From the NCBI GenBank assembly GCA_009668925.1, contig SBEK01000112.1, positions 1 through 13,903 of the forward strand: 13,903 bases of DNA, in the 5' to 3' direction. The first letter of the stretch is position 1. Each line of letters begins with the position of its first letter. The notes under the pieces were generated by a model that was not told the DNA's origin, did not search any database, and was given only the letters and a program-made list of their open reading frames with translations. Positions 749 through 13,903 of this stretch are shown one piece after another. Source of the DNA: Deltaproteobacteria bacterium. Its GTDB lineage: Bacteria; Desulfobacterota; Syntrophia; Syntrophales; Smithellaceae. The translations under genes and the position numbers were made by a program.

Positions 749-777
749 TTGACACACACAGGACCTTCCCCTATAAG
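749..777 (+). promoter_or_regulatory. Sigma-70 promoter of the liv operon
   Basis: TTGACA at 749-754 is a perfect -35 box. After a 17-base spacer comes TATAAG at 772-777 as the -10 box, one mismatch from consensus. Transcription would start near 784, about 33 bases before the livK ATG at 818. The box also creates a TTG codon in frame with livK, which gene finders can mistake for a start. Confidence 0.85.
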
Positions 778-805
778 CTGTGGGCAAAATATCCCAATCC
801 ATGCC

Positions 806-809
806 GGAG
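806..809 (+). promoter_or_regulatory. livK ribosome binding site (GGAG)
   Basis: GGAG lies 8 bases upstream of the ATG at 818. Together with the lipoprotein signal that begins at this ATG, it fixes 818 as the start rather than TTG 749. Confidence 0.75.
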
Positions 810-817
810 TCATTGTT

Positions 818-1984
818 ATGAAAAAAACAGCGATTTTAATCATTTTTCTGGTAATTCTTTCCCTTGGTGTTTTCGGTTGCAGCAAAGAGGATTCTTCTCA
901 AATCAAAATAGGCTTGATTGCCGAACTGACGGGCGACATTCCGGCCGTCGGCGCCTCCTGCAAAAAAGCAGCGGATTTGGCCGTGCAGGAAATCAATGAC
1001 CTGGGCGGGATAGAGCTCGGCGGCAAGAAATATAAAATCAAACTCATTGTCGAGGACAACGCCGGGAAGGCCGATCAATCGGCCTCCGCGGCGCAAAAGC
1101 TGATTACGCAAAATAAAGTCCTGGCGATTGTCGGCCCGAATGCCAGCCGCTACGCGCTGCCCGCCGCTGAAATCGCGGAAACGAGCAAGGTGGTTCTGAT
1201 CACGCCCTGGTCGACGACGCCGAAGGCCACCCTCGATTCCAAAACCAATGCCTCCAAGAAATATGTTTTCCGCGCGTGCTTCATCGATCCCTTCCAGGGA
1301 AGGGTGGTCGCCAAATTCATCCTGGACGACCTGAAACTTAAGAAAGCGGCGGTGCTTTACGACGTGGCCTCCGAATACAATAAAGGCATCGCCGAGATCT
1401 TCAGGGACGTTTATGAGCAGCAGGGCGGCAAGATCGTCGCCTTTGAAACCTACACGACCAATGACAAGGATTTTTCATCACAGTTGACGAAAATCAAGCA
1501 AACCGCGCCGGACGTCATTTTTCTGCCCAACTATTACAGTGAAATACCGCTGCAGATTCAGCAGGCGAAGCGCCTGGGCATTGCCGTGCCGTTTGTCGGC
1601 GCCGACGCCTGGGGAAGTTCCGAACTTCTGAAGCTGTGCGGCGCGGACTGCAACGGCTATTACTTCAGCACGCACTACGCCGCCGATGCGGCGACGGCGA
1701 CGACCAAAAAATTCATCGCGAACTACCGGCTGAAATACGATGCGACGCCGGATGACGTGGCTGCCCTGACCTACGATTCATTCGGACTTCTGTTTCAGGC
1801 GCTTAAGACCGCCGGTAAAAATGACCGCCAGGCCGTCCGCGACGCGCTCGCGAAAATTCCCCGGTATGACGGCGTGACGGGGGATATGCAGTTCAAGGAA
1901 GGATCGGGCGACCCGGTCAAGAGCGCGGTGATTTTGAAGATCAAGGATGGGAAGTTTACGTGGTATGCGAATGCCAAACCCTGA
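818..1984 (+). CDS. livK: Branched-chain amino acid ABC transporter substrate-binding lipoprotein (LivK/LivJ-like)
   Basis: A 388-residue periplasmic-binding-protein type 1 (Peripla_BP_6) receptor that would capture branched-chain or related amino acids outside the inner membrane and deliver them to LivHM. Residues 1-20 form a lipoprotein signal (KK, hydrophobic core, then VFG before C21); S22 after the cysteine would suit outer-membrane sorting by E. coli rules. The mature part opens with the family motif IKIGLIAELTGD, followed by A-x-Q-x-I-N-D-L-G-G near 55-64, a VED-N region near 78-81, and IVGPNAS near 104-110. The start at 818 is chosen because it gives a clean signal peptide, has an RBS and sits behind a strong promoter; the frame extends upstream to a TTG at 749, but that codon is the -35 box. 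Ligand class is inferred: HAAT receptors also bind other amino acids, amides or aromatic acids. It is the first gene of the liv cluster but is separated from livH by 444 bases. Confidence 0.93.
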   Translation: MKKTAILIIFLVILSLGVFGCSKEDSSQIKIGLIAELTGDIPAVGASCKKAADLAVQEINDLGGIELGGKKYKIKLIVEDNAGKADQSASAAQKLITQNKVLAIVGPNASRYALPAAEIAETSKVVLITPWSTTPKATLDSKTNASKKYVFRACFIDPFQGRVVAKFILDDLKLKKAAVLYDVASEYNKGIAEIFRDVYEQQGGKIVAFETYTTNDKDFSSQLTKIKQTAPDVIFLPNYYSEIPLQIQQAKRLGIAVPFVGADAWGSSELLKLCGADCNGYYFSTHYAADAATATTKKFIANYRLKYDATPDDVAALTYDSFGLLFQALKTAGKNDRQAVRDALAKIPRYDGVTGDMQFKEGSGDPVKSAVILKIKDGKFTWYANAKP

Positions 1985-1990
1985 GGAATC

Positions 1991-2127
1991 GGCTTGTTGA
2001 AACGACCCTATGCAGAGTGAATCCGGCGTATGCCGGATGCGCTTCAGCTTTAGTCACTGCGGCCTACGCAACAGTAAGCCGCTCCTAAAGCTTCGCGCGC
2101 CTTGCCTCTGGATCGTTTGAACAAGCC
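1991..2127. repeat. Palindromic element A with 15-bp terminal inverted repeats (MITE/REP-like)
   Basis: The ends are GGCTTGTTGAAACGA (1991-2005) and TCGTTTGAACAAGCC (2113-2127), inverted copies matching at 14 of 15 positions. Inside is a perfect hairpin ATCCGGC-GTAT-GCCGGAT (2021-2038). A second two-part stem pairs AGCTTTAG (2046-2053) with CTAAAGCT (2085-2092), and GCGGC (2059-2063) with GCCGC (2078-2082). The 137-bp unit can fold as a closed multi-arm structure on either strand. It starts 6 bases after the livK stop and has no open frame of note. No obvious target-site duplication flanks it. It could be a dispersed palindromic repeat, an mRNA-stabilising 3' structure that lets livK be expressed above livHMGF, or a non-coding RNA. 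Its role is inferred; the base pairing is seen. Confidence 0.65.
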
Positions 2128-2297
2128 TTGTAAAGCAGTGATTCTCGTTCGGGCCGGGCCCTGAGACGAAAATGGCATTTGGAGTATGTACCCCGTGAAG
2201 GATATTTTTCCTCAAGCCGCGTTAAAACATTCGTGGTAAAACAGGTTGGTCGGATATAGAGAATAAAAAGCGATTGATAAAGGAAGGTCCGTTAGCA
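2128..2297. other. Non-coding spacer between the two palindromic elements
   Basis: No plausible gene. It holds a GC palindrome GGGCCGGGCCC near 2150, an AATGGCAT box (2171-2178) repeated twice further downstream, and an SD-like AAAGGAAGG near 2279-2287 that leads only into the 3-codon frame ATG-CCA-TTT-TAA at 2298. No convincing promoter for livH was found; TTGGAG with ATATTT at 17-base spacing near 2180-2208 is a weak candidate only. Confidence 0.5.
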
Positions 2298-2307
2298 ATG
2301 CCATTTT
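2169..2307 (+). promoter_or_regulatory. 11-bp inverted repeat competing with element B: possible switchable leader of livH
   Basis: AAAATGGCATT (2169-2179) is a perfect inverted copy of AATGCCATTTT (2297-2307). The latter overlaps the left arm of element B, which can instead pair with 2402-2419. The core AATGGCAT therefore occurs three times: plus at 2171-2178, minus at 2298-2305, plus at 2412-2419. In an mRNA the middle copy can pair with only one partner at a time, giving two alternative folds just upstream of livH. As DNA, the three boxes could equally be binding sites for a repressor or activator. Regulation is inference. Confidence 0.4.
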
Positions 2308-2419
2308 AATTAAAGATGATATCGCGGCGGCGAGGAGGAGGCGCCGGAGGCGTATATGCAAATACGTCGAGGACGCTGACGACGAGACAACAAAGATAGC
2401 GCTTTAATTTGAATGGCAT
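2298..2419. repeat. Palindromic element B with 18-bp terminal inverted repeats, ending 9 bases before livH
   Basis: The arms ATGCCATTTTAATTAAAG (2298-2315) and CTTTAATTTGAATGGCAT (2402-2419) are inverted copies matching at 16 of 18 positions. TATC (2320-2323) with GATA (2395-2398) may extend the stem past an internal loop. The interior is a purine-rich GGCGGCGAGGAGGAGG stretch followed by a 7-bp hairpin: GGCGTAT (2349-2355) pairs with ATACGTC (2362-2368), one G-T pair, around a 6-base loop. It resembles the dispersed structured repeats seen in intergenic DNA of many deltaproteobacterial genomes; this resemblance is from memory and was not searched. It may be a miniature mobile element, a structured non-coding RNA, or a livH leader. 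Confidence 0.6.
2356..2379 (+). CDS. Possible 7-codon leader micro-ORF (MQIRRGR) inside element B
   Basis: GGAGG at 2346-2350 is placed 5 bases before ATG 2356, an ideal ribosome binding site. The frame reads Met-Gln-Ile-Arg-Arg-Gly-Arg and stops at TGA 2377-2379, 49 bases before livH. The ATG lies in the loop of the 2349-2368 hairpin. If translated it could open the surrounding stems and affect livH translation. It contains one Ile and no Leu or Val, so it is not a classical branched-chain attenuator peptide. It could also be chance. Confidence 0.25.
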   Translation: MQIRRGR

Positions 2420-2428
2420 CTTGACTCT

Positions 2429-3304
2429 ATGGCCTATATTTTTCAACAGACTTTAAATGCCTTGCAGCTGGGCAGCATTTACGCACTTATCGCCCTGGGC
2501 TACACGATGGTCTACGGCATTCTGACGATGATCAACTTCGCCCACGGCGATTTGTTCATGGTTGGCGCCTTCTTCTGTTTTCTCATTGCCGTCTATCTTC
2601 ATCTTTCTTTTGTTCCGACGCTGCTTTTATCCATGCTGGGCGTGGCCTTTCTGGGCGTGGTCATCGAACGGCTCGCCTACAAGCCGCTGCGCAATGCGCC
2701 GCGCGTTTCCGCCATCATCACGGCTCTGGGCGTCGGGCTTTTTCTGGAGAATTTCACCCTGGCGCTTTCGCCCTATCCCAAGCACATTCCGCCCTTGCTC
2801 GATAACGTCACCTGGACGGTCGGTTCGCTTTCCATTTCTTCGCTGCAGATTCTGGTGATCGTCCTTTCGCTCGCTTTGATGCTGATTCTGGATTTTATCG
2901 TCCAGCGGACAAAAGCCGGGATGGCCATGCGCGCCATCTCCTGGGACAAGTCCATTGTCGGGCTGATGGGGGTGCCGGTCAACAGGATCATCTCGCTCAC
3001 CTTCGCGATCGGAACGGGCCTGGGCGGCGCGGCCGGCATGATGTACGGGCTGGCCTATCCGGTAATCGATCCTTACATGGGGATCATGGTCGGCTGGAAG
3101 GCCTTCATCTCCGCCGTCGTGGGCGGCATCGGCAATATCCGCGGCGCGATGATCGGCGGTTTCATTCTGGGGGCGGTCGAAATTATGGTCGCCGCGTTTT
3201 TCCCCTCCACTTACCGTGATTTTGTGGCTTTCACGCTGCTCCTGGTTCTTCTGATTCTGAGGCCGTACGGCATTCTGGGCAAGCCGCACCCGCAAAAGGT
3301 TTAG
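2429..3304 (+). CDS. livH: Branched-chain amino acid ABC transporter permease LivH
   Basis: A 291-residue inner-membrane permease of normal LivH length with about eight hydrophobic segments; with LivM it forms the translocation pore. The N-terminal signature GSIYALIALGYTMVYGI (15-31) followed by MINFAHGDLFMVGAF (34-48) is typical of LivH. The stretch near 200-235, with a small-residue GTGLGGAAGMMYG segment and then VGGIGNIRGAMIGG, is the conserved permease loop that contacts the ATPases. The start at 2429 is forced: the frame closes at TAA 2405-2407 and there is no other start codon between. No Shine-Dalgarno sequence precedes the ATG (the 9 bases are CTTGACTCT), unlike livK, livG and livF. 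The gene ends 2 bases before livM. Confidence 0.95.
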   Translation: MAYIFQQTLNALQLGSIYALIALGYTMVYGILTMINFAHGDLFMVGAFFCFLIAVYLHLSFVPTLLLSMLGVAFLGVVIERLAYKPLRNAPRVSAIITALGVGLFLENFTLALSPYPKHIPPLLDNVTWTVGSLSISSLQILVIVLSLALMLILDFIVQRTKAGMAMRAISWDKSIVGLMGVPVNRIISLTFAIGTGLGGAAGMMYGLAYPVIDPYMGIMVGWKAFISAVVGGIGNIRGAMIGGFILGAVEIMVAAFFPSTYRDFVAFTLLLVLLILRPYGILGKPHPQKV

Positions 3305-3306
3305 TC

Positions 3307-4350
3307 ATGTCTTCAATCCAAACGGCCTATCAGCGGCTCTCCAAACACTGGCACACGCTTACCGGCTACAGATTTTTCTGGCCGGTCTTCGGGCTCGCCG
3401 GCCTGGCCTTCTGCGTCGCCGTCGACCGGTTTGAATTTCTGGATTTATACCTGCAGCTGATTTTGATTTATGTGGGCATCAACATCATCCTCACCGTCAG
3501 CCTGAATCTGATCAACGGATACATGGGCGAATTTTCCGTGGGCCACGCGGGCTTCATGGCCGTGGGTGCCTACATTGCCTCGCTTATGACCGTTTATGTA
3601 TTTCCGGCGGGCGCCCACGAGCTGCTTTTCCCGGTGGCGATTCTGGCGGGCGGCGCCGGCGCGGCCCTGATCGGATTGCTGGTCGCCATCCCCTCTTTTA
3701 AAACACGCGGCGACTATCTGGCCATCGTCACATTGGCCTTCTGCATGATTGTGAAATCCATTCTGGAAAATATTGACGCCGTCGGCGGGCCGCGCGGACT
3801 TCTGGGCATGGAAAAGCTCACGACGCTGCCGTGGGTCTTCTTCTGGACCGCGCTTTCGGTCTGGGTGATCCGCAACCTGGTCTATTCCAATTTCGGACGG
3901 GGCGTGTTGTCCATCCGCGAGGATGAAATCGCCAGCGACCTGATGAGCGTCAATACGCGCCAGGTGAAGATCATTGCGTTTGTCGTCTCGTCTTTTTTTG
4001 CCGGCATTGCCGGCGGGCTGTTTGCCCATGCCCTGCAGTTTATCAATCCGCGCATGTTCGATATCATTAAATCCACCGATATCCTGATTATGGTTTATCT
4101 GGGCGGCATCTCGTCCATTGCCGGTTCGATCCTCGGCGCGGTCATCTATACGATCCTGCTGGAAATCCTGCGGCCGATGGGCATCTGGCGCATGGTGTTC
4201 ATGCCGCTCTTGCTGGTGCTCCTCATGATTTACCGGCCGCGCGGTATCATGGGGCTTCGGGAGGCCCGCCTGTTTACGCCGCTTCGCGATCTCACCATCG
4301 AAAGGATGTGGCGGCAAAAGAAAAAGGAGGCCCCGGATGCCGCTGATTGA
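3307..4350 (+). CDS. livM: Branched-chain amino acid ABC transporter permease LivM
   Basis: A 347-residue inner-membrane permease, partner of LivH. Hydrophobic segments run through most of the protein. Conserved LivM motifs are seen: SLNLINGYMGEFSVGHAGFM, a TRGDYLAIVTLAF segment, GGPRGLLGM, and near the end VYLGGISSIAGSILGA followed by MIYRPRGIMG. The N-terminus has a modest hydrophilic extension before the first membrane segment. AAAAGG at 3294-3299 is a usable RBS 7 bases before the ATG, lying in the end of livH, so translation is probably coupled. The 3' end overlaps livG by 14 bases. A long antisense frame runs through the gene but shows no protein family features. Confidence 0.95.
   Translation: MSSIQTAYQRLSKHWHTLTGYRFFWPVFGLAGLAFCVAVDRFEFLDLYLQLILIYVGINIILTVSLNLINGYMGEFSVGHAGFMAVGAYIASLMTVYVFPAGAHELLFPVAILAGGAGAALIGLLVAIPSFKTRGDYLAIVTLAFCMIVKSILENIDAVGGPRGLLGMEKLTTLPWVFFWTALSVWVIRNLVYSNFGRGVLSIREDEIASDLMSVNTRQVKIIAFVVSSFFAGIAGGLFAHALQFINPRMFDIIKSTDILIMVYLGGISSIAGSILGAVIYTILLEILRPMGIWRMVFMPLLLVLLMIYRPRGIMGLREARLFTPLRDLTIERMWRQKKKEAPDAAD
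4324..4330 (+). promoter_or_regulatory. livG ribosome binding site (AAGGAGG)
   Basis: A full Shine-Dalgarno sequence inside the last codons of livM, 6 bases before the livG ATG at 4337. It supports the overlapping start. Confidence 0.8.
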
Positions 4351-5107
4351 AATATCCAAACTCACCCACCGCTTCGCCGGCCTTTGCGCAGTATCCGATT
4401 TCAATCTGGCGGTCTTGCCGCAGGAGCTGGTCGGCATTATCGGACCCAACGGAGCGGGGAAGACGACGGTTTTCAACCTCATCACCGGCGTCTACCGGGC
4501 GACGGAAGGCAGCATCAAACTGAGCGGGAAGGAGCTGGTCGGCCTGACGCCGCATCAGATCACCCGCCTGGGCATTGCGCGCACTTTTCAAAACATCCGG
4601 CTCTTTAAAGAGCTCTCCGTGCTGGATAATGTCCGCATCGCTCATTACGGCCAGATGGCCTACACGCCGGCCGAAGCGCTTTTGCATATCGGCCGTTTCC
4701 GCGCCGAGGAGAAGCGCATCACGACCCGGGCGCTGGACTTGCTCTATGTTTTCAAACTGGATGAGGCGGCGGGCGAGAAAGCCAAGAACCTGCCTTACGG
4801 CCTGCAGCGCCGCCTGGAAATTGCGCGGGCGCTCGCCACCGGGCCCGAGCTTCTCCTGCTCGATGAGCCGGCGGCCGGCATGAACCCCAACGAAATTGTC
4901 CAGCTCATGGAATTTATCCAGTGGATCCGCAAGACGTTTTCCGTCACGGTTATTTTGATCGAGCATCAGATGCGCCTGGTGATGGGCATTTGCGAACGCC
5001 TGGTGGTGCTGGATTTCGGCGCGACGATCGCCTGCGGCCTGCCCGCGGAGATTCGGGCAAATCCGAAAGTCCTGGAAGCTTACCTCGGCGAGGAGGTGGC
5101 TTCATGA
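4337..5107 (+). CDS. livG: Branched-chain amino acid ABC transporter ATP-binding protein LivG
   Basis: A 256-residue cytoplasmic ABC ATPase that powers import through LivHM as a dimer with LivF. Seen: Walker A GPNGAGKT (36-43), Q-loop Q85 in ARTFQN, signature region LPYGLQRRLEIARA (152-165), Walker B ELLLLDEP (171-178), and switch histidine H210 in LIEHQM. LivG proteins usually read LSYGxQ in the signature; here the Ser is Pro (residue 153), a mild deviation. The C-terminal extension ending in LEAYLG (246-251) is the usual feature of this branched-chain ATPase type. It overlaps livM at the 5' end and livF by ATGA at the 3' end, so the genes are co-translated. Confidence 0.95.
   Translation: MPLIEISKLTHRFAGLCAVSDFNLAVLPQELVGIIGPNGAGKTTVFNLITGVYRATEGSIKLSGKELVGLTPHQITRLGIARTFQNIRLFKELSVLDNVRIAHYGQMAYTPAEALLHIGRFRAEEKRITTRALDLLYVFKLDEAAGEKAKNLPYGLQRRLEIARALATGPELLLLDEPAAGMNPNEIVQLMEFIQWIRKTFSVTVILIEHQMRLVMGICERLVVLDFGATIACGLPAEIRANPKVLEAYLGEEVAS
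5091..5096 (+). promoter_or_regulatory. livF ribosome binding site (AGGAGG)
   Basis: Perfect AGGAGG 7 bases before the ATG at 5104. This decides the livF start against a longer in-frame reading that begins at 4921 inside livG. Confidence 0.8.
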
Positions 5108-5823
5108 CCCCGGGCGATCTTCTGCTGTCCGTTTCCGGCTTAAACGTTTTCTACGACAGCATCAAAGCGGTGGATGATATTTCCTTTGATGTGGCGAGCG
5201 GAGAAATCGTCGTGTTCATCGGCGCGAACGGGGCGGGCAAATCCTCCATCCTGCGGGCCGTCTCCGGTATGATTCCTTACGAGGGCAGCATCGCCTATGC
5301 GGGGAAAAATCTGAAAAACATCTCCGCCGACCGCATTGTCGCCGCAGGCGTCGCCCATGTGCCGGAGGGCCGCGGTATTTTCGGCAACCTTACCGTGATG
5401 GAAAATCTTAAGCTCGCCTGCTGGCAGCGCCGGGACAAAATGAAAACCACCCAGGACCTCGACCGGGTGTTTGAACTTTTTCCGCGGCTTCGTGAACGGG
5501 AAAAGCAGTTGGGGGGGATGCTTTCCGGCGGCGAGCAGCAGATGCTGGCCGTGGGCCGCGCGCTCATGACCGACGCCCGGATGCTCTTGCTCGACGAGCC
5601 GTCCATGGGGCTCTCGCCCGTTTTGGTGCGGGATATTTTCAAAATCATCCGCGAAATCAATGGGGCGGGGAAAACCATTCTGCTCGTCGAACAGAACGCG
5701 AACATGTCGCTTTCCATCGCTTCCCGGGGCTATGTTCTGGAAACCGGGCGCATTGTCCTTTCCGGAACAGGCAAAGAACTGACGGGTAATCCCCGCGTCC
5801 GGGAAGCGTACTTAGGCGCGTAG
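5104..5823 (+). CDS. livF: Branched-chain amino acid ABC transporter ATP-binding protein LivF
   Basis: A 239-residue cytoplasmic ABC ATPase, partner of LivG. Seen: Walker A GANGAGKS (40-47), the LivF-typical VPEGRGIFGNLTV stretch (86-98), canonical signature LSGGEQQMLAVGRAL (140-154), Walker B MLLLDEPSMGL (160-170), and VEQNA (195-199), where LivF has Gln in place of the usual switch His. The C-terminal VREAYLG (232-238) is standard for the family. The frame is open back to 4921, but that region duplicates livG coding sequence in another frame; ATG 5104 gives the normal LivF length and has an RBS. It overlaps the livG stop by 4 bases. It is the last gene of the operon; the 91 bases before the convergent DUF2950 gene show no strong terminator. 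Confidence 0.95.
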   Translation: MTPGDLLLSVSGLNVFYDSIKAVDDISFDVASGEIVVFIGANGAGKSSILRAVSGMIPYEGSIAYAGKNLKNISADRIVAAGVAHVPEGRGIFGNLTVMENLKLACWQRRDKMKTTQDLDRVFELFPRLREREKQLGGMLSGGEQQMLAVGRALMTDARMLLLDEPSMGLSPVLVRDIFKIIREINGAGKTILLVEQNANMSLSIASRGYVLETGRIVLSGTGKELTGNPRVREAYLGA

Positions 5824-5914: not shown

Positions 5915-6877
5915 TCATTCATCCACTTTTTTCCAGGTGGCGTCGGGATTGTAGCTCGTCATCGCGCGGGCGATCTTTTTCGAATTCCTGCCCAGGTCTT
6001 TCTGATAGACCATGTCGTCCTTGTTCACGATAAACGTGGTTATCCCGGTCACGCCGTAAACAGCCGGATAGGCGACGAGCGCGAATCCGCCGATCATTTT
6101 CTTGTCCACGATATAGTCGTAGGCGCCGCCCGGCGCATCCTTTCCCTGGCTCTTGAGGATCTTGTAATAGTATCCGTGATAGGGAGCAGGTTCCTTGCCG
6201 GGCAGTCTAAGCGAGGTCATTTCCTCTTCGCAGGCGGAAGCCACAAGGGGGCCCAGGAGGCTTGGTTTTTCACCGCTTTGGGCCGGGCAGCAAAGTCCGT
6301 TCTTCTTTCCCGGTTCGCTCGCCAGCCGCTGGGCATATTCACCGATTCCGGCAGCTCCGTGCTGACTCGCATACTCCAGCTGCGCATCCACATAGGCCAG
6401 GCAAACCTGAACCGCGGCGACTTCATTTTTGCCGATTCTGCGGGCAACGATTTCCTTAATCCCCGCCCGGGTATCGAAGCGCCAGCGGCTGCCGGCTTTC
6501 GTAAGCGGAACCGGCCAGGGCCAGTCCTTTTCGCCCACATGCAAAATGACCTTGTTTGTCCCCGTCTTCTCCAGCCTGTGTTTTACGCGATACGCCTCTA
6601 AAAACCCCTCCCGGGAGCCGGCATCGTCTTCACCGTCAGCCGGGAAGATTTCTTCGGAGCCTCGTCCGAACAGGGCGTTCAGTTGTTTGGCATCTTTGCT
6701 TTCAACGGAGGCGATCAGCATGCCGAAGGCTTCTTCCGGCGAGGCAAATGTTTTCTGGGTCATTTTGGCCGCCTCGGCCGCCCCGCCGCAAAGGACGATA
6801 AGCGCGGCGGCAGCGATGATGGAAAACGCCGCCATTTTGATCACATTGATTATTCTCATGCGCATAAGGATCATCAT
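5915..6877 (-). CDS. DUF2950 family exported protein
   Basis: A 320-residue protein of the DUF2950 family, function unknown. The N-terminus carries a signal peptide: a basic start, a hydrophobic core to about residue 30, then GGAAEA-A as a likely cleavage site near 36-37. A lipobox is not convincing (VL before C30). The domain covers the rest: F44-A-S-P-E-E-A-F at the start, a WP-W-P-V-P-L-T segment at 119-126, RWRFDT-AG at 131-139, RRIGKNE at 146-152, AYVDAQLEYA at 161-170, PYHGYYYKIL at 232-241, then APGGAYDY and MIGGFALVAYP (261-271), and DATWKKV at the end. The start at 6877 has CGGAGG and AAGGAG just upstream. It lies 43 bases downstream of the DUF3300 gene on the same strand, a pairing known in many proteobacteria, so the two are probably one transcript and may act together in the envelope. 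Confidence 0.9.
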   Translation of the reverse strand: MMILMRMRIINVIKMAAFSIIAAAALIVLCGGAAEAAKMTQKTFASPEEAFGMLIASVESKDAKQLNALFGRGSEEIFPADGEDDAGSREGFLEAYRVKHRLEKTGTNKVILHVGEKDWPWPVPLTKAGSRWRFDTRAGIKEIVARRIGKNEVAAVQVCLAYVDAQLEYASQHGAAGIGEYAQRLASEPGKKNGLCCPAQSGEKPSLLGPLVASACEEEMTSLRLPGKEPAPYHGYYYKILKSQGKDAPGGAYDYIVDKKMIGGFALVAYPAVYGVTGITTFIVNKDDMVYQKDLGRNSKKIARAMTSYNPDATWKKVDE

Positions 6878-6920: not shown

Positions 6921-8195
6921 TCATCGTCTTTGGCCTCCGCCGCGCGGGGCGCCTCCGCCCTGAAATCTTCCTCCGCCCTGGAATCCTCTTGCGCCGCCTG
7001 CGTCGCGACCCATGCTGCTTTCCCCGCGGTCCCGCTGCTGCATCACTTCCCGGCCGCTCGAACCGAAACCTTCGAAGGCGTTATTGCGCCCGCGGGCGGA
7101 CGGGGCAGGCGAAAAGGACGGGGCGTCGCTCCTTGGCTGCATATCGCGACGCTCCATCCGCGTTCCGGAAGGTTGTTCAAACGGCCTTGTCCCGGGGCTC
7201 GCCGCGCGCGGCGTTGTCAGCGGACGCCCTCTGTCCGGCCTTCGGTCCGGGGCCGTACCGAGGCCGGGCCCCCTTCCTTCGGGACCAAAGCCGCGGAAAG
7301 ACCGGCGTGCCTCAATGCCGGCGCGTGGCATCTGGCCGAATCTGCGGCCGATTTCAGGACTGCGGTACTCTATGCCGCGGCGATGAACCGGATTGTGCCT
7401 CCAGGTTTCCGAGCCGCCGTGCATTCTGGTAATCGGGGGTCTGTGAAATCCCAGGGTCCTGTGGTGATCGATGAATATTTCGTGCCGGCGCCAGTGGAAA
7501 CCGCACCAGGGGCCGAGGGGACCGATAAAGATGGGCGGACCGAAAAAGAAGCCGGCGCCGACAACAATACCGGGGTACCAGAACCATAAGGGTGAGCATG
7601 CCGGATACCACCAGGGACCGTAAACCCAGCACGGATCGTACGCCGGAACATAAACAACGTCGGGCCGGGCCGGCTCGATGATGATGGATCCATTGTCCGT
7701 GGTCACCGTTTCCCTCTCGGTTGACGAAAGATTGCCCTGGACTTTAGCTTTGGCCCGCAGTTTCTGTATCGTATCCATCACCTGGTCTTGCTGGCCCAGA
7801 AATGCATTGCCCAGGTCGTTGGTCAGCTGCAGGTTGTCGCTCATCGTCGCCAGCACCCGCGGATAGCGGCAGAGCGATTTTACACTGACGTCCCAGGATT
7901 TGTCCCGAAGCGCCTCATCCAATGCCTCCGGCGTCAATTCCTGTCTTTTTTGCAGCCAGCGGTCGGCTTCAACCACTTCCAGCGGATAGGTCGATGCCAT
8001 CAGAATCTGCGACAAGAGGGCATCCGGATACAGGGCGATGGGGGCGAGATACCTGTCGAGCTCTTCCTGGGAATAAACCCTGGTTTGCGGTGCGGACGGG
8101 CCCGCTTCGTCGGTCTGGGCCGGGAGCGCCGCGGGCGGAATCAGAAGAAGCGTCAACAGCAATGCGGCAGCCGTGAAATATTTATTCATCTTCAT
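6921..8195 (-). CDS. DUF3300 family exported protein with a low-complexity Gly/Arg-rich tail
   Basis: A 424-residue protein. Residues 1-27 form a signal peptide (MKMNKYF, hydrophobic stretch, ALPAQ). The DUF3300 domain starts at YSQEELDRYLAPIALYPDALLSQILMAS (41-68) and continues with YPLEVVEADRWL and SVKSLCRYPRVL to about 190, where VVYVPAYDP appears. An aromatic and glycine-rich section follows (WWYPAC...PLWFWYPG, then GFFFGPPIFIGPLGPW, 193-230). From about 255 on the tail is rich in Arg, Gly, Pro and Ser and ends with GGG/RG repeats, probably disordered. The start is set at 8195 because GAGG (8204-8207) lies 8 bases upstream and the signal peptide begins there; the frame continues to 8306, but that addition gives a polar stretch ahead of the signal. 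Function is unknown; the family is found next to DUF2950. Confidence 0.87.
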   Translation of the reverse strand: MKMNKYFTAAALLLTLLLIPPAALPAQTDEAGPSAPQTRVYSQEELDRYLAPIALYPDALLSQILMASTYPLEVVEADRWLQKRQELTPEALDEALRDKSWDVSVKSLCRYPRVLATMSDNLQLTNDLGNAFLGQQDQVMDTIQKLRAKAKVQGNLSSTERETVTTDNGSIIIEPARPDVVYVPAYDPCWVYGPWWYPACSPLWFWYPGIVVGAGFFFGPPIFIGPLGPWCGFHWRRHEIFIDHHRTLGFHRPPITRMHGGSETWRHNPVHRRGIEYRSPEIGRRFGQMPRAGIEARRSFRGFGPEGRGPGLGTAPDRRPDRGRPLTTPRAASPGTRPFEQPSGTRMERRDMQPRSDAPSFSPAPSARGRNNAFEGFGSSGREVMQQRDRGESSMGRDAGGARGFQGGGRFQGGGAPRGGGQRR

Positions 8196-8397
8196 TGATT
8201 TTACCTCGTTGTTCGATACGCAGGATCTGTTAAAATGAACAACCGAAACGATTGCAGATGATTGTTGCCGGGACGGATCCAATCCTCTGTTCATGATTAA
8301 TGTCATTATGATTTATTAGGCAATAATAGTTAAATGGAGGAATAATAGTAGCCGATATCTATGGGGCGCAATTTCCGCAGACAACAGGGGGGAAATC
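8196..8397. promoter_or_regulatory. Divergent intergenic region (DUF3300 gene / small lipoprotein gene)
   Basis: This 202-base AT-rich gap must hold promoters for both directions. I could not pick one with confidence; TTAACT and CATAAT at 17-base spacing on the minus strand (about 8308-8335) is the best weak candidate for DUF3300. A 9-bp direct repeat AATAATAGT occurs at 8322-8330 and 8341-8349, a 19-bp period that could place two sites on one DNA face. Confidence 0.35.
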
Positions 8398-8649
8398 ATG
8401 AAAGGAAAGACATTCTTGCAGCCAGGGCCGATCGGGAAAATTTTCAGAGGCCTGGTCATCGGCGGTGTGACGATCGCGATTTTGGGCGGCTGTGAAAGCG
8501 GTGACAAGGTGATTGACGAGGCGACCGGCAATCGGGCCCTTAAGCAGTATCAGGCAACCAAAGAAACATTAAATACGATCGACGCGCAGCAGAAGGAAAG
8601 ACATAAGGCGCTTGAGGAAAATGAAGCGGCGGAAAAGCGTTCGGATTGA
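8398..8649 (+). CDS. Small lipoprotein of unknown function
   Basis: An 83-residue protein with a basic N-terminus, a hydrophobic stretch (about 18-30) and LGGC with C32 as the likely lipidation site. The mature part is about 51 residues, highly charged and rich in Lys, Glu, Gln and Ala (residues 46-80), predicted by eye to be a helix or short coiled coil. A run of G followed by AAA (8387-8395) serves as RBS just before ATG 8398. I do not recognise a family. It is transcribed away from DUF3300 and ends at a strong terminator, so it is a monocistronic unit. E38 is the third residue after GCES-type sorting positions; sorting cannot be judged safely. Confidence 0.75.
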   Translation: MKGKTFLQPGPIGKIFRGLVIGGVTIAILGGCESGDKVIDEATGNRALKQYQATKETLNTIDAQQKERHKALEENEAAEKRSD

Positions 8650-8754: not shown

Positions 8755-10596
8755 TTATTTCATGAGCACCTTCAGATCATCAATGATCGCGCGGTAATTC
8801 TGGTATCTTTTGTCCGGATTCTTTTCCATCATCTTCCCGATGATGTTGGACAGGGCGCTCGAAAGGATGGGGTTCATCTTCTTCAAGGGGACCAGGCTTT
8901 CCGTCGCATGCTTGGACAGAATGGCATCGACCGTGTCTCCGTCAAAGGGCGGCACGCCGGCAAAGAGATGGTAAAAGGTGGCGCCCAATGAGTAAATATC
9001 GCTGCGGCGGTCCAGCGGGCGGCCCGTGCTGCACTCGGGAGACGCATAAAGCGGCGATCCCACCATGCCTTCGGTCTTTTTCTTCTTTTCCGTTTCGTCG
9101 TTGACGACCGCCACGCCGAAATCAACCACTTTCAATACGCCATGATCGTCGATCATGATGTTTTCCGGTTTAATGTCGCGGTGGACGATGTTCTGTTCGC
9201 TGACAAAATCGAGTGTCCGGCAGATGGTGATGAAATGTTCCAGGCCTTTTGCCGTATTGAGATTGTTTCTGTCCTTGATAATATCGGCCAGCGTCCCCCC
9301 GCTAATGAGCTCCATGGCAAAGAACAGAACATCATCCGCGTGATCGATGTGGTAGATCTGCGCGATATTGGGATGGTTCAGACGGGAAACCAGCTGCGCC
9401 TCCTTCACAAACATGTCGCGGTACGAGCTGATCATGGAAAGATTGAAGGAGATGATCTTCAGGGCCACATCCCGCTCCAGGACAACGTCCCACCCTTTAA
9501 AAACACCGGCCATACTGCCGGCGCCTATAAAAGACACCGCCTTATAGTTGCCCAGTTTCTTTCCGACAAGGCTGCGGTAAAACTTTATTTCCAGAGCGCG
9601 GTCGCTTCCGGAATCCTCCGCCTCGGTATTTTCTATCTCGGGCGCGTCCATTTGCATGACCATTTTGGCGTCGATCAGTTTTCCAATCGGCGATTCATCC
9701 GTCACGGTGCGCTTTTTCGCCGGAAGTTTTTCGGGGGCTTCGCTTTGCTTGAGAATGTAATGATACGTTTCGTTCCATTCCGGGGAATTCTTGATGATGA
9801 CCCCGATGCGCGCCGACATCTGGTGATTGCTGATCGAAATATGCTTGACATGACCCTCCAGGACCAATTTCCCCTCGGGCAGCCCGACTCTGACGTAAAG
9901 CGGCATGTCGAGCTTGCCGAGCAGGGAGGTCTCCATCATCAATCCCTTGATATGGGCGTTGATGATCTGGCCGGGCATCCAGAAAATGGCATCGCGCGAT
10001 AATTCAACGGGGATTGCTTCCTTCAGGATGGTTCGTTCATGGTATCGGCGGTGCTCTTCGACGATCGGAGCGTCGCCGTCTTTCGGTCCGGCCGATGCTT
10101 CCCGGCGCCCGTCAGCGGCTGCGGATCCTCTCTTCTCTTTGGTCATGGCCGGGAATCTTCTGCCGATGCGTTCCGTGAGCACTTTGGACGCTTCCTCTTC
10201 CGGCGTATCCACGATGAAATCATGCGCCCCCATGTCAAAAGCCTTCAGAACCATGGCGACCTCATCCTCGATCGTGCGGACCGGATGATCCGCCGCTCCC
10301 GCGTCCGGCGTCCCGCCTGCGCTCTCGGCGCTGTGGATGGAGACAAAGAACACAAAGGGAATATCTTTCCAGTCCGGGCTGCTCTTTACCGCGCTGAGGA
10401 AATCATAGCCGCTGACGTCGGCAAGCTCGCTGTCGCTGACGATAAGGACGACGGGATTGGCACCCACTAAGCCGATGGCTTCACTCATGGTTGTCGCGGT
10501 CAAGAGCGCGTAACCGGCATCCGTGAGCGACTGGCCAACCGTGTCGAGAAAATTTCGTTCACGATTCACCAGTAGTATATAGCTTTTAGTATCCAT
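8755..10596 (-). CDS. Degenerate receiver + PilZ-like + Hanks-type Ser/Thr protein kinase fusion
   Basis: A 613-residue cytoplasmic protein without membrane segments. Residues 1-140 have a receiver fold: ILLVNRER at the N-terminus where DD is expected, candidate phospho-acceptor D55 in LIVSDSEL, SGYDFL at 62-67, an extra loop near 88-115, and GAHDFIVDT (123-131), where the conserved Lys is missing. Residues about 180-285 look like PilZ: R184-x3-R188, then N213-x-H215-x2-G218 in place of the usual D/N-x-S-x2-G, followed by beta-strand-like sequence ending ARIGVIIKN. Residues about 345-613 are a protein kinase with all key parts: IGAGSMAGVFKG (357-368), K380 in VALK, E399, HRDIKPEN (472-479), DFG (492-494), SPE (519-521), and D533 in RSDIYSLG. 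It is last in an operon behind cheY and cheX-like genes (71-base gap). It would phosphorylate Ser/Thr of unknown partners, perhaps tuned by c-di-GMP. The RBS is weak (AAGGA only 2 bases from ATG). Confidence 0.88.
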   Translation of the reverse strand: MDTKSYILLVNRERNFLDTVGQSLTDAGYALLTATTMSEAIGLVGANPVVLIVSDSELADVSGYDFLSAVKSSPDWKDIPFVFFVSIHSAESAGGTPDAGAADHPVRTIEDEVAMVLKAFDMGAHDFIVDTPEEEASKVLTERIGRRFPAMTKEKRGSAAADGRREASAGPKDGDAPIVEEHRRYHERTILKEAIPVELSRDAIFWMPGQIINAHIKGLMMETSLLGKLDMPLYVRVGLPEGKLVLEGHVKHISISNHQMSARIGVIIKNSPEWNETYHYILKQSEAPEKLPAKKRTVTDESPIGKLIDAKMVMQMDAPEIENTEAEDSGSDRALEIKFYRSLVGKKLGNYKAVSFIGAGSMAGVFKGWDVVLERDVALKIISFNLSMISSYRDMFVKEAQLVSRLNHPNIAQIYHIDHADDVLFFAMELISGGTLADIIKDRNNLNTAKGLEHFITICRTLDFVSEQNIVHRDIKPENIMIDDHGVLKVVDFGVAVVNDETEKKKKTEGMVGSPLYASPECSTGRPLDRRSDIYSLGATFYHLFAGVPPFDGDTVDAILSKHATESLVPLKKMNPILSSALSNIIGKMMEKNPDKRYQNYRAIIDDLKVLMK

Positions 10597-10667
10597 AGTC
10601 CTTGCGATGAAAATATCCAGTTAGATGAAGAAATTCATTTGCAAACGGCTAATTTCAAGCCGGGCGC

Positions 10668-11522
10668 TCACGCCTGTTTGGCGCGGTTCGCGTTCGGCTT
10701 GATGCAAACATGTAAAGCAAAGGACTGGTTTCCCACTTGAAAAATAAGCACGGCCACGGAGGTGTTTTGCAGGTATCCGATCTGGTGGCCGGGACCGACG
10801 ACGATGGATGGCAGTGAAATCTCAAAATGATAGGGCTTCCCGACAAATTCCTTTTTCGTGGTGCCGCTGATCATGTTAATGATTTCGCTCACGCCGTCAT
10901 GAATCAGTTCCGCATCGATGGAACCTTCTTCCGTTCCCATCATCTTCGCAATGATCATCTTGGCCAGATCCCAGTAGAATGTGACCACAAGAGTTCCCTC
11001 GGCGTCACCGGAGAGCCCCATGATCCCTGATACGTCGCCGAAGATTCTGATGGTATTGGAAAAATAAACTCTCTTGAATTGAACATCCACCCCCGCCATG
11101 GTTTTAAGGATGTGGCACGTGTTTTTGATAAAAGGCTCCAGGTATTCAAGTTCTTCCGCCAGGGGGTCCCTGCTCGGAATTAAATAACCGTTGATAATAT
11201 GCTTACAGGCCGGCGGCGGGTCCGATAAAGACAGCACTTCGGTCGCGCCGGCGATGATATAAGGTTGCGACGGGAAGTCCCGTTTCTGGCCGTGGAAAAG
11301 AATGATGGGAATATTCTGGAAGCTGCACGCATACCGCAGGTTGCAGATTTGCTGAACCACGTGTTCCTGGTTCTTGCTCATCCATAAAATGATCATGTCA
11401 TAGCCGCCGACCGCCATTCCTTCCTGAAACTTTTCATATTCGATATAGGCATCATCACTGAGCAGCTTTAAAATATCTTTTTCGGCTTTCGGGCTGCAAT
11501 CCAGTCCCAGTATTTTCTTCAT
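10668..11522 (-). CDS. CheX-like phosphatase domain protein with an N-terminal degenerate receiver
   Basis: A 284-residue cytoplasmic protein. Residues 1-115 resemble a receiver (KILGLDCSPKAEKDIL; YDMIILWMS; IPIILFHG; AGATEVLSL), but W47 occupies the phospho-acceptor position, the acidic pair is reduced to D8-C9, and the conserved Lys near 98-100 is absent, so it should not be phosphorylated. Residues about 125-277 match the CheX/CheC fold: GDVSGIMGLSGDAEGT (162-177) and the active-site E213-I-I-N216 with following G220 (SEIINMISG), then ISLPSIVVGPG (235-245). CheX proteins dephosphorylate CheY-P using that Glu and Asn, so the stand-alone CheY encoded 121 bases upstream is the likely substrate. 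GGAGG (11533-11537) lies 10 bases before ATG 11522. The pseudo-receiver may act as a docking module. It could instead be a non-catalytic CheX relative, though the motif is kept. Confidence 0.85.
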   Translation of the reverse strand: MKKILGLDCSPKAEKDILKLLSDDAYIEYEKFQEGMAVGGYDMIILWMSKNQEHVVQQICNLRYACSFQNIPIILFHGQKRDFPSQPYIIAGATEVLSLSDPPPACKHIINGYLIPSRDPLAEELEYLEPFIKNTCHILKTMAGVDVQFKRVYFSNTIRIFGDVSGIMGLSGDAEGTLVVTFYWDLAKMIIAKMMGTEEGSIDAELIHDGVSEIINMISGTTKKEFVGKPYHFEISLPSIVVGPGHQIGYLQNTSVAVLIFQVGNQSFALHVCIKPNANRAKQA

Positions 11523-11544
11523 AGAAAAGAAACCTCCATTTCGT

Positions 11545-11557
11545 ATTCACGGTGAAT
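11545..11557. promoter_or_regulatory. Small palindrome ATTCAC-G-GTGAAT upstream of the cheX-like gene
   Basis: Perfect 6-bp arms around one base, 23 bases upstream of ATG 11522 and next to its RBS. It could be an operator or a weak hairpin in the mRNA. The rest of the 121-base gap holds only a 5-bp hairpin (11604-11616). Confidence 0.3.
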
Positions 11558-11643
11558 CCCCGGGATCGCTGATAAATTCCGTGTGCATCGACGGCCGCTG
11601 TCTTGCCCTCTGGGCACCCGGTTTCCGACCCGTCTGCTGCCTC

Positions 11644-12015
11644 CTATTTCTTATCCAGCACCTGATGAATTGCATTTTTCAGTTGATCCGGCGTAAAGGG
11701 CTTGGTGAGATAGCCCTGGGCGCCGGCTGTGACGGCTTCCTGAATCCTTTTTTCTTCGGACTCCGTGGATACCATCAACACGGGAATTTTATTGAAGCGA
11801 TCATCGCGGCGCATGTTTTTGATCACGTCGATACCGTTCAAAACAGGCATGTTCCAGTCCAGAAGCACGATGCGGACATCCTGATAAGCGGTTTCCAGGA
11901 TATTCAGGGCATCCTTGCCGTTTGCTGCCTGCAGCGCCTCGAACCCGTCCGAGACGACGGCTCTCTCGACGATGCCGCGGACGAGTCGCGAATCATCTGC
12001 AATGAGCACTTTCAT
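11644..12015 (-). CDS. CheY-like single-domain response regulator
   Basis: A 123-residue receiver with no output domain, the normal CheY length. All phosphorylation residues are present: acidic pair D7-D8, phospho-acceptor D53 in VLLDWNMP, T84 in MVSTES, and K105 in LTKPF. GGAGG (12024-12028) lies 8 bases before ATG 12015. It is the first gene of the cheY / cheX-like / kinase operon. It probably receives phosphate from a histidine kinase encoded elsewhere, is cleared by the CheX-like protein, and signals by protein contact; whether this bears on motility or another process cannot be told from this window. Confidence 0.93.
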   Translation of the reverse strand: MKVLIADDSRLVRGIVERAVVSDGFEALQAANGKDALNILETAYQDVRIVLLDWNMPVLNGIDVIKNMRRDDRFNKIPVLMVSTESEEKRIQEAVTAGAQGYLTKPFTPDQLKNAIHQVLDKK

Positions 12016-12030
12016 TTTCCAATCCTCCCT

Positions 12031-12068
12031 TTCCTTTAGATACTCCGTGAGGCGAACTTCCTTTAGAT
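12031..12068 (-). repeat. 11-bp direct repeat in the cheY leader
   Basis: TTCCTTTAGAT occurs at 12031-12041 and 12058-12068, a 27-base period. In the cheY mRNA it reads ATCTAAAGGAA twice, each with an SD-like AAGGAA, upstream of the true RBS. It could be a regulator or small-RNA site, or a duplication. Confidence 0.4.
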
Positions 12069-12086
12069 CTTCCCTATGCGGTTCTT

Positions 12087-12114
12087 TTTATAGGGGAATG
12101 GCGCTGTCTGTCAA
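12087..12114 (-). promoter_or_regulatory. Sigma-70 promoter of the cheY-cheX-kinase operon
   Basis: Read on the minus strand: TTGACA (12114-12109), a 16-base spacer, TATAAA (12092-12087). Start of transcription is expected near 12080, giving a leader of about 65 bases. The -35 box overlaps an 11-base palindrome TGTCA-A-TGACA (12109-12119), a possible operator. Confidence 0.75.
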
Positions 12115-12261
12115 TGACAATTTATCTCTCCATACCGTGGCTGGTCTGTCCCGTATAAGAAACGCTGTCACCAGGCTGCTTTTTCATCCCTCGGGAAGGA
12201 GTCGCGCCCTTCATTGGCAAAAGGGCATTTTCCGCCGGAGGCGCCCTGGTCTCCCGGGACT

Positions 12262-13903
12262 CTATAACCGCCAGAGGAGTTTAAGTTTACCGACAAGTTC
12301 TTTTTGCCGCTCGTCGATGGCGGCCGGCGTCCATTCTCTATACTGCAACACCTGCGCCGTGATCATGAAAGGCGATGCGCCCCGGCCGGCGGCGAAATAA
12401 TAATTCTTCATTTTCTCGAAATCAAAATTCCGCGCCTGGACGCTTTTCCCGCCTGCGAGCAAAACCAGATTCCCGATACGATGCACCCGCTGCGATCTTT
12501 CGTCCGCCGTGGGAAACCATTTGATCCAGATGCTGTCCTTGTCCGGGTTTTGCGGAAGAACATGTTCCACCGAGATGACGGGGTCCTCCTGCAGGATTCT
12601 TCCCCCGGCGAGCGCCGAGTCGAGGCGCAGGAGAACATACCGCCGGATTCTTTTGGCGAGGAATAGATCACCGGCGAGAATTTTCATAATCAGGCCTGCT
12701 TCGCCCGCAGTCAATTGAAGCGGAGAAGTGGCGGCCTCCAGATCGGCTCTTTCTTCAATCGCCAAAAGAAGCCGCTCATAACGGCGGAGGCGGGAATAGG
12801 CGTCCGCCCGCAAAATCATCAGGCCCGCCGCCAGTCGCTCCAGGTCGGTGAAGAATCGATCGCGGGCGCTTCGCGCATCGCGGTTTTGCGCCAGGTAGAG
12901 GATCGCCGGCGGCACCCAGTCGAAGTTGTCGATTTGGTTCAGCCAGGCGAGCATGGAATTGACGGTCGGGGCGCCTTCATCGCTGCTATAAGATGCCGTC
13001 CTGATGATTTCGAGATATTCCGAGTACGGCCGGAGGACTTCATCGATGAATTTTTGCGGGTTCTTTTGCGGCGGAATGTGCTTGCGGTATTCAAGGAGGG
13101 CGACATCCCGCAATTTTGTTTTGCGGTAAACCTGCCGGACATGGGCGAATAATTCCTGAAAGGTTTCTTCCTCCTCGTCCTCCCAGAACTTGGCGTACAC
13201 TCCCTGTTTATCCCCCGGAAGCGACCCGATCATTTCCGACCGGATCAGGTCGATGAGCCGGAGGTCCTGCATCCGGGCGGAGAGCACGGAGAATGTGTGA
13301 TAGGCCGATTCGATATCCGGGGCGGATACGGCAACCAGAAAACAGCGCAGCATCAGGTATTGCAGAAGCCTCTGGCATCGCAATTCCGGAAGATGGGCCA
13401 GAGCCTCTATGAAAAAGTTTACATGGTCCAGGACGTTTCTTTGGTTCTCCGTGAGGGGTGAGCCGAAGGGCTCGGGGCTCTGCGGCTCTTTCTCGTCCTG
13501 GATAAAATAACGGAAGAATTCTTCGTCGCCCTCACGCAATTTAGACCGGTAGCGTTCGGACATTCCCGCGATCAGGTCGCCCTTTTCGTATTTGCATACG
13601 GCAAGCATAGCGGCAAACTGGCTGGGCAGCACGCGGCGCAGGGCCGCCAAAAGGATTGCAAACTCCGTTAACCGCCGCCTCCCGTCAACGACGGCGACGT
13701 CCGGAGCGTCCTCTGACTTGATCAGCGCTATGCTGCCCAGAAAATAAGGCCGGGTGAACAAGACGGGCTGCGCGTCGTTTTCCAAATAAGCCAAGAGGTC
13801 GGTCAGCAGTTCTCCGGCCTGATGCGCCGTCCACGTGTAAGGCCCGGGGTAGAGGGGCACCATAAAAGGAAAATCATTTTTAAAAATTTTAAACAACGCT
13901 TTG
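12262..13903 (-). CDS. DUF262-DUF1524 protein, GmrSD/SspE-like putative anti-phage nuclease (5' end open)
   Basis: The frame is open to the right edge. A TTG at 13896 would give 544 residues, but no RBS can be seen there and the true start may lie outside. Numbering from that TTG, residues 11-90 form a DUF262 N-domain: VPLYPGPYTW (13-22) where the family has VPxYQRxYxW, YFLGSI (51-56), and DGRRRLT (71-77) where the family has DGQQRLT. A long helical middle follows. Residues 440-500 carry the DUF1524 HNH-like nuclease motif: VEHVLPQ (443-449), HRIGNLVLL (472-480) and N490 before FDFEKMK. This architecture is that of GmrSD type IV restriction enzymes and SspE, which cut modified or foreign DNA in a nucleotide-dependent way. 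The nuclease residues look intact while the DUF262 motif is altered, so NTP use is uncertain. No methylase or dnd/ssp genes are visible. No terminator is clear downstream. Confidence 0.85.
   Translation of the reverse strand, partial: KALFKIFKNDFPFMVPLYPGPYTWTAHQAGELLTDLLAYLENDAQPVLFTRPYFLGSIALIKSEDAPDVAVVDGRRRLTEFAILLAALRRVLPSQFAAMLAVCKYEKGDLIAGMSERYRSKLREGDEEFFRYFIQDEKEPQSPEPFGSPLTENQRNVLDHVNFFIEALAHLPELRCQRLLQYLMLRCFLVAVSAPDIESAYHTFSVLSARMQDLRLIDLIRSEMIGSLPGDKQGVYAKFWEDEEEETFQELFAHVRQVYRKTKLRDVALLEYRKHIPPQKNPQKFIDEVLRPYSEYLEIIRTASYSSDEGAPTVNSMLAWLNQIDNFDWVPPAILYLAQNRDARSARDRFFTDLERLAAGLMILRADAYSRLRRYERLLLAIEERADLEAATSPLQLTAGEAGLIMKILAGDLFLAKRIRRYVLLRLDSALAGGRILQEDPVISVEHVLPQNPDKDSIWIKWFPTADERSQRVHRIGNLVLLAGGKSVQARNFDFEKMKNYYFAAGRGASPFMITAQVLQYREWTPAAIDERQKELVGKLKLLWRL

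Follow-up and report, generated by a model that had tools for sequence, protein, structure and literature searches.

The catalytic motif of CheX is E-x2-N, and the CheY–CheX phosphatase pair is represented by solved structures of Thermotoga maritima CheX (1squ/1xko) and of the Borrelia CheX–CheY–BeF3 complex (3hzh). Fusions of a receiver to a Ser/Thr protein kinase (REC-STPK fusions) are a known class of response regulators with Ser/Thr kinase output, and most known cross-talk between two-component systems and Hanks kinases involves a kinase that modifies a response regulator. The cyclic di-GMP (c-di-GMP) motif of PilZ domains consists of RxxxR and [D/N]-x-S-x-x-G. Fusions of CheA with CheC or CheX in Leptospirae form a single histidine-kinase chain, as described in PMC10782961. 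Here we describe a three-gene module, cheY–cheX–kinase, found on contig SBEK01000112.1 of a Deltaproteobacteria bacterium (assembly GCA_009668925.1; Smithellaceae in GTDB). The whole 13,903-nucleotide stretch that was analyzed is referred to below as the window.

Compared with the CheY–CheX pair, the CheX of this module has an N-terminal pseudo-receiver, and a Hanks kinase gene always comes next where the contig continues. Like REC-STPK fusions, the module kinase has a receiver-like domain N-terminal to the Hanks kinase domain; unlike them, it has a degenerate receiver, separated from the kinase domain by a PilZ-like domain. The module resembles the Leptospirae fusions in that a CheX-type phosphatase is physically tied to a kinase pathway, but its kinase is a Ser/Thr kinase and is encoded by a separate gene. 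No description of a CheY–CheX–kinase unit was found among the matches listed in open-licence full texts (subscription literature lay outside this search), and the unit is not mentioned in the available portions of papers on Geobacter chemotaxis genes (PMC2577667) and on CheA architectures (PMC10782961).

The three genes occur across many distantly related anaerobes in unchanged order. On the minus strand of the window, they are read as cheY (11644..12015, 123 aa), cheX (10668..11522, 284 aa), and then the kinase gene (8755..10596, 613 aa), all of them intact open reading frames (ORFs). An initial genome scan yielded four loci, each with the three genes in this order. A profile search of 155 genomes of one taxonomic order recovered eight full-length CheX relatives scoring at least 472 bits (the next best scored 102). 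CheX relatives were also found in 6 of 395 genomes of a phylum sample, 7 of 85 of a second class, and 2 of 17 of a third class; in the CheX scans of the phylum sample and of the classes, matches were shown only at E values of 1e-60 or better. With G003 (see below), the total comes to 18 further genomes besides that of the window. At all 19 loci, CheY and CheX are same-strand neighbors, and the kinase follows CheX at each of the 18 whose contig continues (that of L059 stops 80 bp past CheX). An adjacency unique to the window genome is ruled out by the same order in these 18 further genomes. Identity to the window falls as low as 43% for CheY, 49% for CheX, and 41% for the kinase (the cut L066 kinase has 34%), and the gene order has therefore outlasted much sequence change. 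Within the first ten loci, apart from generic ABC-ATPase and receiver likeness, flanking genes are common mainly to L001, L002, and L043; L061 and L062 also have flanking genes in common. The G003 locus (L003) comes from a metagenome-assembled genome (MAG) labeled as candidate division KSB1, in which a 3.5-kb contig (1-3530) holds the module alone and CheX is 77% identical to that of the window. This contig may be mis-binned, and it is therefore weak evidence for spread.

A search with the kinase front alone picked out, above a clear score gap, exactly the genomes that CheX had: 8 of 155 and 7 of 85. Kinase fronts of the relatives score at least 173 bits (that of G084 in two pieces) versus at most 86 bits for the remainder, and among the best rows these lower-scoring matches cover at most about the first 179 of 318 positions; for CheX, the relatives score at least 399 bits in the two-class scans versus at most 102 for others in the 155-genome search. 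It should be noted that in receiver-rich genomes the kinase-front scoring covered part of the candidates (14 per genome in the first set and 26 in the second), so that a missed kinase is possible. Under random placement in independent genomes, identical genome sets would arise with chances of 1.5e-13 (8/155) and 2e-10 (7/85), figures that are only illustrative because the genomes are related. Pairwise divergences of the three proteins are correlated (0.950, 0.906, and 0.895) over 16 of the 19 loci, leaving out L059, where the kinase is missing, and L047 and L066, where it is cut. As a control, we inspected 22 ordinary CheX loci of the same taxonomic order. A kinase of this type was absent from all of them over distances of up to 1.5 kb, or less where a contig broke off sooner. 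Given that CheX and the kinase front occur in the same genomes and that no control locus has the kinase, an ordinary CheY–CheX pair with an accidental kinase neighbor is disfavored. Because of gene order, co-occurrence, and correlated divergence, all observed directly, we regard the module as a conserved unit, as the first-pass annotation of the window had proposed, and consider it highly probable that CheY, CheX, and the kinase work as one.

The cheY product is a stand-alone receiver (Pfam Response_reg, E 3.2e-27) that was initially described as canonical on the basis of D7, D8, D53, T84, and K105. These residues are invariant at 19 of 19 loci, and the full receiver active site is kept. The phosphatase domain of CheX (residues 123-284; 10668..11156, minus strand) carries E213-x2-N216 inside a long helix (204-225) and matches Pfam CheX over residues 164-261 (E 2.1e-16); on testing, both its fold and its sequence family are those of CheX. 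E213 and N216 are invariant at all 19 loci and in all 48 rows of alignment A4, and homology supports the view that the protein acts as a CheY phosphatase. The original CheX assignment stands for this domain, but it overlooked the N-terminal part of the protein (residues 1-118; 11169..11522, minus strand). There, Trp47 occupies the acceptor-Asp place, at which the 48 alignment rows have Glu, Trp, Gln, or Ala throughout; judged by sequence, this front part is a pseudo-receiver that would not be phosphorylatable in the usual way. Five long CheX ORFs of the same taxonomic order (L021, L025, L026, L033, and L035) have an N-terminal CheX domain followed by a tail of ~140-175 residues without a Pfam name. 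They were excluded as module CheX since CheX first with an unnamed tail is another architecture. One viral scan with CheX found no relative, and a virus-borne copy of the module was set aside on that single scan.

The third protein had been annotated as a fusion of receiver, PilZ-like domain, and kinase, and of these the kinase and, by homology, the PilZ-like part hold up, but the receiver is degenerate. The Hanks-type Ser/Thr kinase domain (residues 351-599; 8800..9546, minus strand; Pfam Pkinase, E 1.3e-47) keeps its catalytic residues K380 (the Lys), E399 (alpha-C Glu), D474 (HRD Asp), and D492 (DFG Asp) at all 17 loci that reach that far, and homology supports an active kinase. At the front (residues 1-147; 10156..10596, minus strand), Pfam still recognizes a receiver (Response_reg, E 2.6e-8), with N11 and R12 in place of the Asp pair at 18 of 18 loci, Asp or Tyr (D130 in the window) in place of the canonical Lys, likewise at all 18, and D55 retained at 16. 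This front reads as a pseudo-receiver, without the Asp pair and Lys of canonical aspartyl-phosphate chemistry, and the idea that it is itself an aspartyl-phosphate receiver is not supported.

In the window copy, the middle part (residues 182-286; 9739..10053, minus strand) gives no Pfam PilZ match at E values as high as 1. At the corresponding place in eight relatives, the Pfam cut-off of 22.5 bits is reached or passed in four (L001, L002, L003, and L043), and no match is found in the other four (L004, L044, L045, and L046). Like PilZ c-di-GMP receptors, most of the 36 alignment rows have RxxxR (R184-x3-R188, 34 rows) and N...G (N213 and G218, 36 rows each). Unlike them, the motif Ser between N213 and G218 is present in 12 rows, and both motifs are complete in only 11, with L003 and L043 among the relatives that have the full motif; the window copy has RxxxR but reads N-A-H-I-K-G, with His in place of the Ser. 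Because of these motif counts and the His of the window, homology to PilZ is probably good, but c-di-GMP binding by the window copy, suggested as a possibility at first, appears doubtful. The region is predicted, at moderate confidence, to form six strands and then a helix. The model of the whole kinase is poor (mean pLDDT, a predicted confidence score, of 59.5), and its fold searches returned mostly kinases and did not resolve the PilZ-like part separately.

A single promoter for the three genes, also part of the first-pass annotation, was not confirmed. A sigma-70 scan gave no minus-strand site in 12016-12260, ahead of cheY, the nearest being 12425-12397, inside the upstream GmrSD ORF; sigma-54-like and FliA-like patterns were no commoner than in shuffles, and none fell in 12016-12260. 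Eight aligned upstream regions have no conserved block except the ribosome-binding site. The gaps between cheY and cheX (11523..11643, 121 bp) and between cheX and the kinase gene (10597..10667, 71 bp) have no minus-strand terminator-like site. Among the relatives, two of the genes overlap by 4 bp at L058, and the spacers at L063 are only 1 and 7 bp long, which suggests one operon in those loci. Overall, a shared promoter of cheY, cheX, and the kinase gene is unproven.

It was also noted at first that no histidine kinase or flagellar gene lies nearby, which is true of the window but does not extend to all relatives. The G563 module lies directly downstream of a same-strand cluster encoding CheA, CheW, a methyl-accepting chemotaxis protein, two CheR proteins, and CheB; in G312, FliD and FliS lie upstream of it, with CheD on the opposite strand. 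Other loci have kinase-related neighbors: genes for a CHASE2 Hanks kinase, PP2C, and FHA proteins come directly after the module at L001 (8954-13129), as do, in a second lineage, those for two Hanks kinases, PP2C, and FHA at L061 (2121-7477); L043 and L062 have look-alikes, by sequence, of these downstream genes; and the L063 module is preceded by a Hanks kinase that has a cNMP-binding domain. Adjoining the module at L058, a plus-strand gene (10476-12476) encodes MshEN, HD_5, receiver-like, and DUF4388 domains, and its product is possibly another c-di-GMP-related signaling protein.

Our preferred reading, which we offer tentatively, is that the Hanks kinase is controlled by CheY-phosphate, which a dedicated CheX resets, via docking on pseudo-receivers. 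CheY would receive its phosphate on D53 from a histidine kinase, of the CheA type or another, whose gene usually lies elsewhere; CheA is the likely source of phosphate, with neighborhood support from one genome only, and its dimer domain was found in 14 of the 18 module genomes. The dedicated CheX would strip this phosphate via E213 and N216. We infer that CheY-phosphate, by itself or together with CheX, docks on the front of the Hanks kinase (pseudo-receiver and PilZ-like domain) and alters how active the kinase is. In this way, a rapid aspartyl-phosphate signal that can be reset would lead to Ser/Thr phosphorylation of target proteins. The two pseudo-receivers, themselves unphosphorylated, may serve as docking surfaces that hold phosphatase and kinase together, and the PP2C and FHA proteins are possible partners where linked to the module. 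An extended version, possible but held with less confidence, is a dedicated relay from two-component to eukaryote-like signaling, in which CheX-reset CheY-phosphate switches the Hanks kinase, the two pseudo-receivers act as adaptor, and c-di-GMP would add gating in the relatives with full PilZ motifs.

Several points weigh against this proposal. The sequence does not fix the direction of control, and docking or phosphotransfer between the three proteins is putative. CheA stands beside the module in only 1 of the 18 genomes (G563), and its dimer domain was not found in four (G002, G003, G084, and G601; several of these are MAGs). In the window copy, the N-terminal pseudo-receiver of CheX is not recognized by Pfam. 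Finally, gaps of 300 bp between CheY and CheX at L065 and of 389 bp between CheX and the kinase at L060 speak against one compact operon throughout.

The main rival is the reverse direction, in which the Hanks kinase, under the control of the domains at its front, would Ser/Thr-phosphorylate CheY or CheX and so tune chemotaxis, pilus, or other CheY output, with CheY as the target. Order conservation and co-occurrence favor it just as they favor control of the kinase by CheY, the pseudo-receiver could be the site that docks the kinase to CheX or CheY, and FliD, FliS, and CheD by the module in G312 and the CheA cluster in G563 fit a motility output. However, among the eight first-order genomes with the module, six (G001, G004, G019, G059, G077, and G140) have a separate, ordinary CheX ~1.4-1.5 kb from a CheA dimer domain; the module CheX is therefore an additional one, which points to a separate circuit, and we consider the reverse direction somewhat unlikely. 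Less probable still is co-transcription only, in which CheY and CheX would act in a chemosensory system located far away, the kinase having a separate function and merely happening to share the operon. CheY–CheX pairs without the kinase are indeed common (15 of the 22 control loci have a CheY-like match beside CheX), but the CheX relative and the kinase front were detected together in 15 of 240 genomes of two classes and not apart, and CheY adjoins each examined CheX (19/19). The weakest alternative, that the kinase works directly as an aspartyl-phosphate response regulator, with PilZ as an added c-di-GMP sensor, and shares one operon with CheY and CheX, can draw on the retained D55, on the PilZ motif residues (complete in 11 rows), and on GGDEF proteins in 17 of the 18 module genomes, but is quite improbable given the replaced Asp pair and Lys at 18 of 18 loci, the His for Ser and missing PilZ match of the window copy, and the lack of any GGDEF protein found in the module genome G458.

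As for the rest of the window, a GmrSD-type restriction endonuclease gene (12262-13896, minus strand; Pfam GmrSD_N and GmrSD_C), whose start is near the window end, lies 246 bp upstream of cheY. Downstream of the kinase gene, on the plus strand, an 83-aa ORF (8398-8649) has no Pfam or NCBIfam match; by eye, its start resembles a signal peptide and it contains an LGGC stretch like a lipobox. DUF2950 and DUF3300 genes (5915-6877 and 6921-8306, minus strand) are same-strand neighbors, both of unknown function, and 749-5823 (plus strand), judged from its ORFs, resembles a branched-chain amino acid ATP-binding cassette (ABC) uptake cluster. Rfam at gathering cut-offs gave no match anywhere in the window.

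As a conserved unit with a CheY and a CheX of its own, the module would offer a compact system, open to testing, for the possible control of a Ser/Thr kinase by an aspartyl-phosphate switch. The module kinase with its dead receiver, together with CheX, would be an example of two pseudo-receivers maintained over long times.

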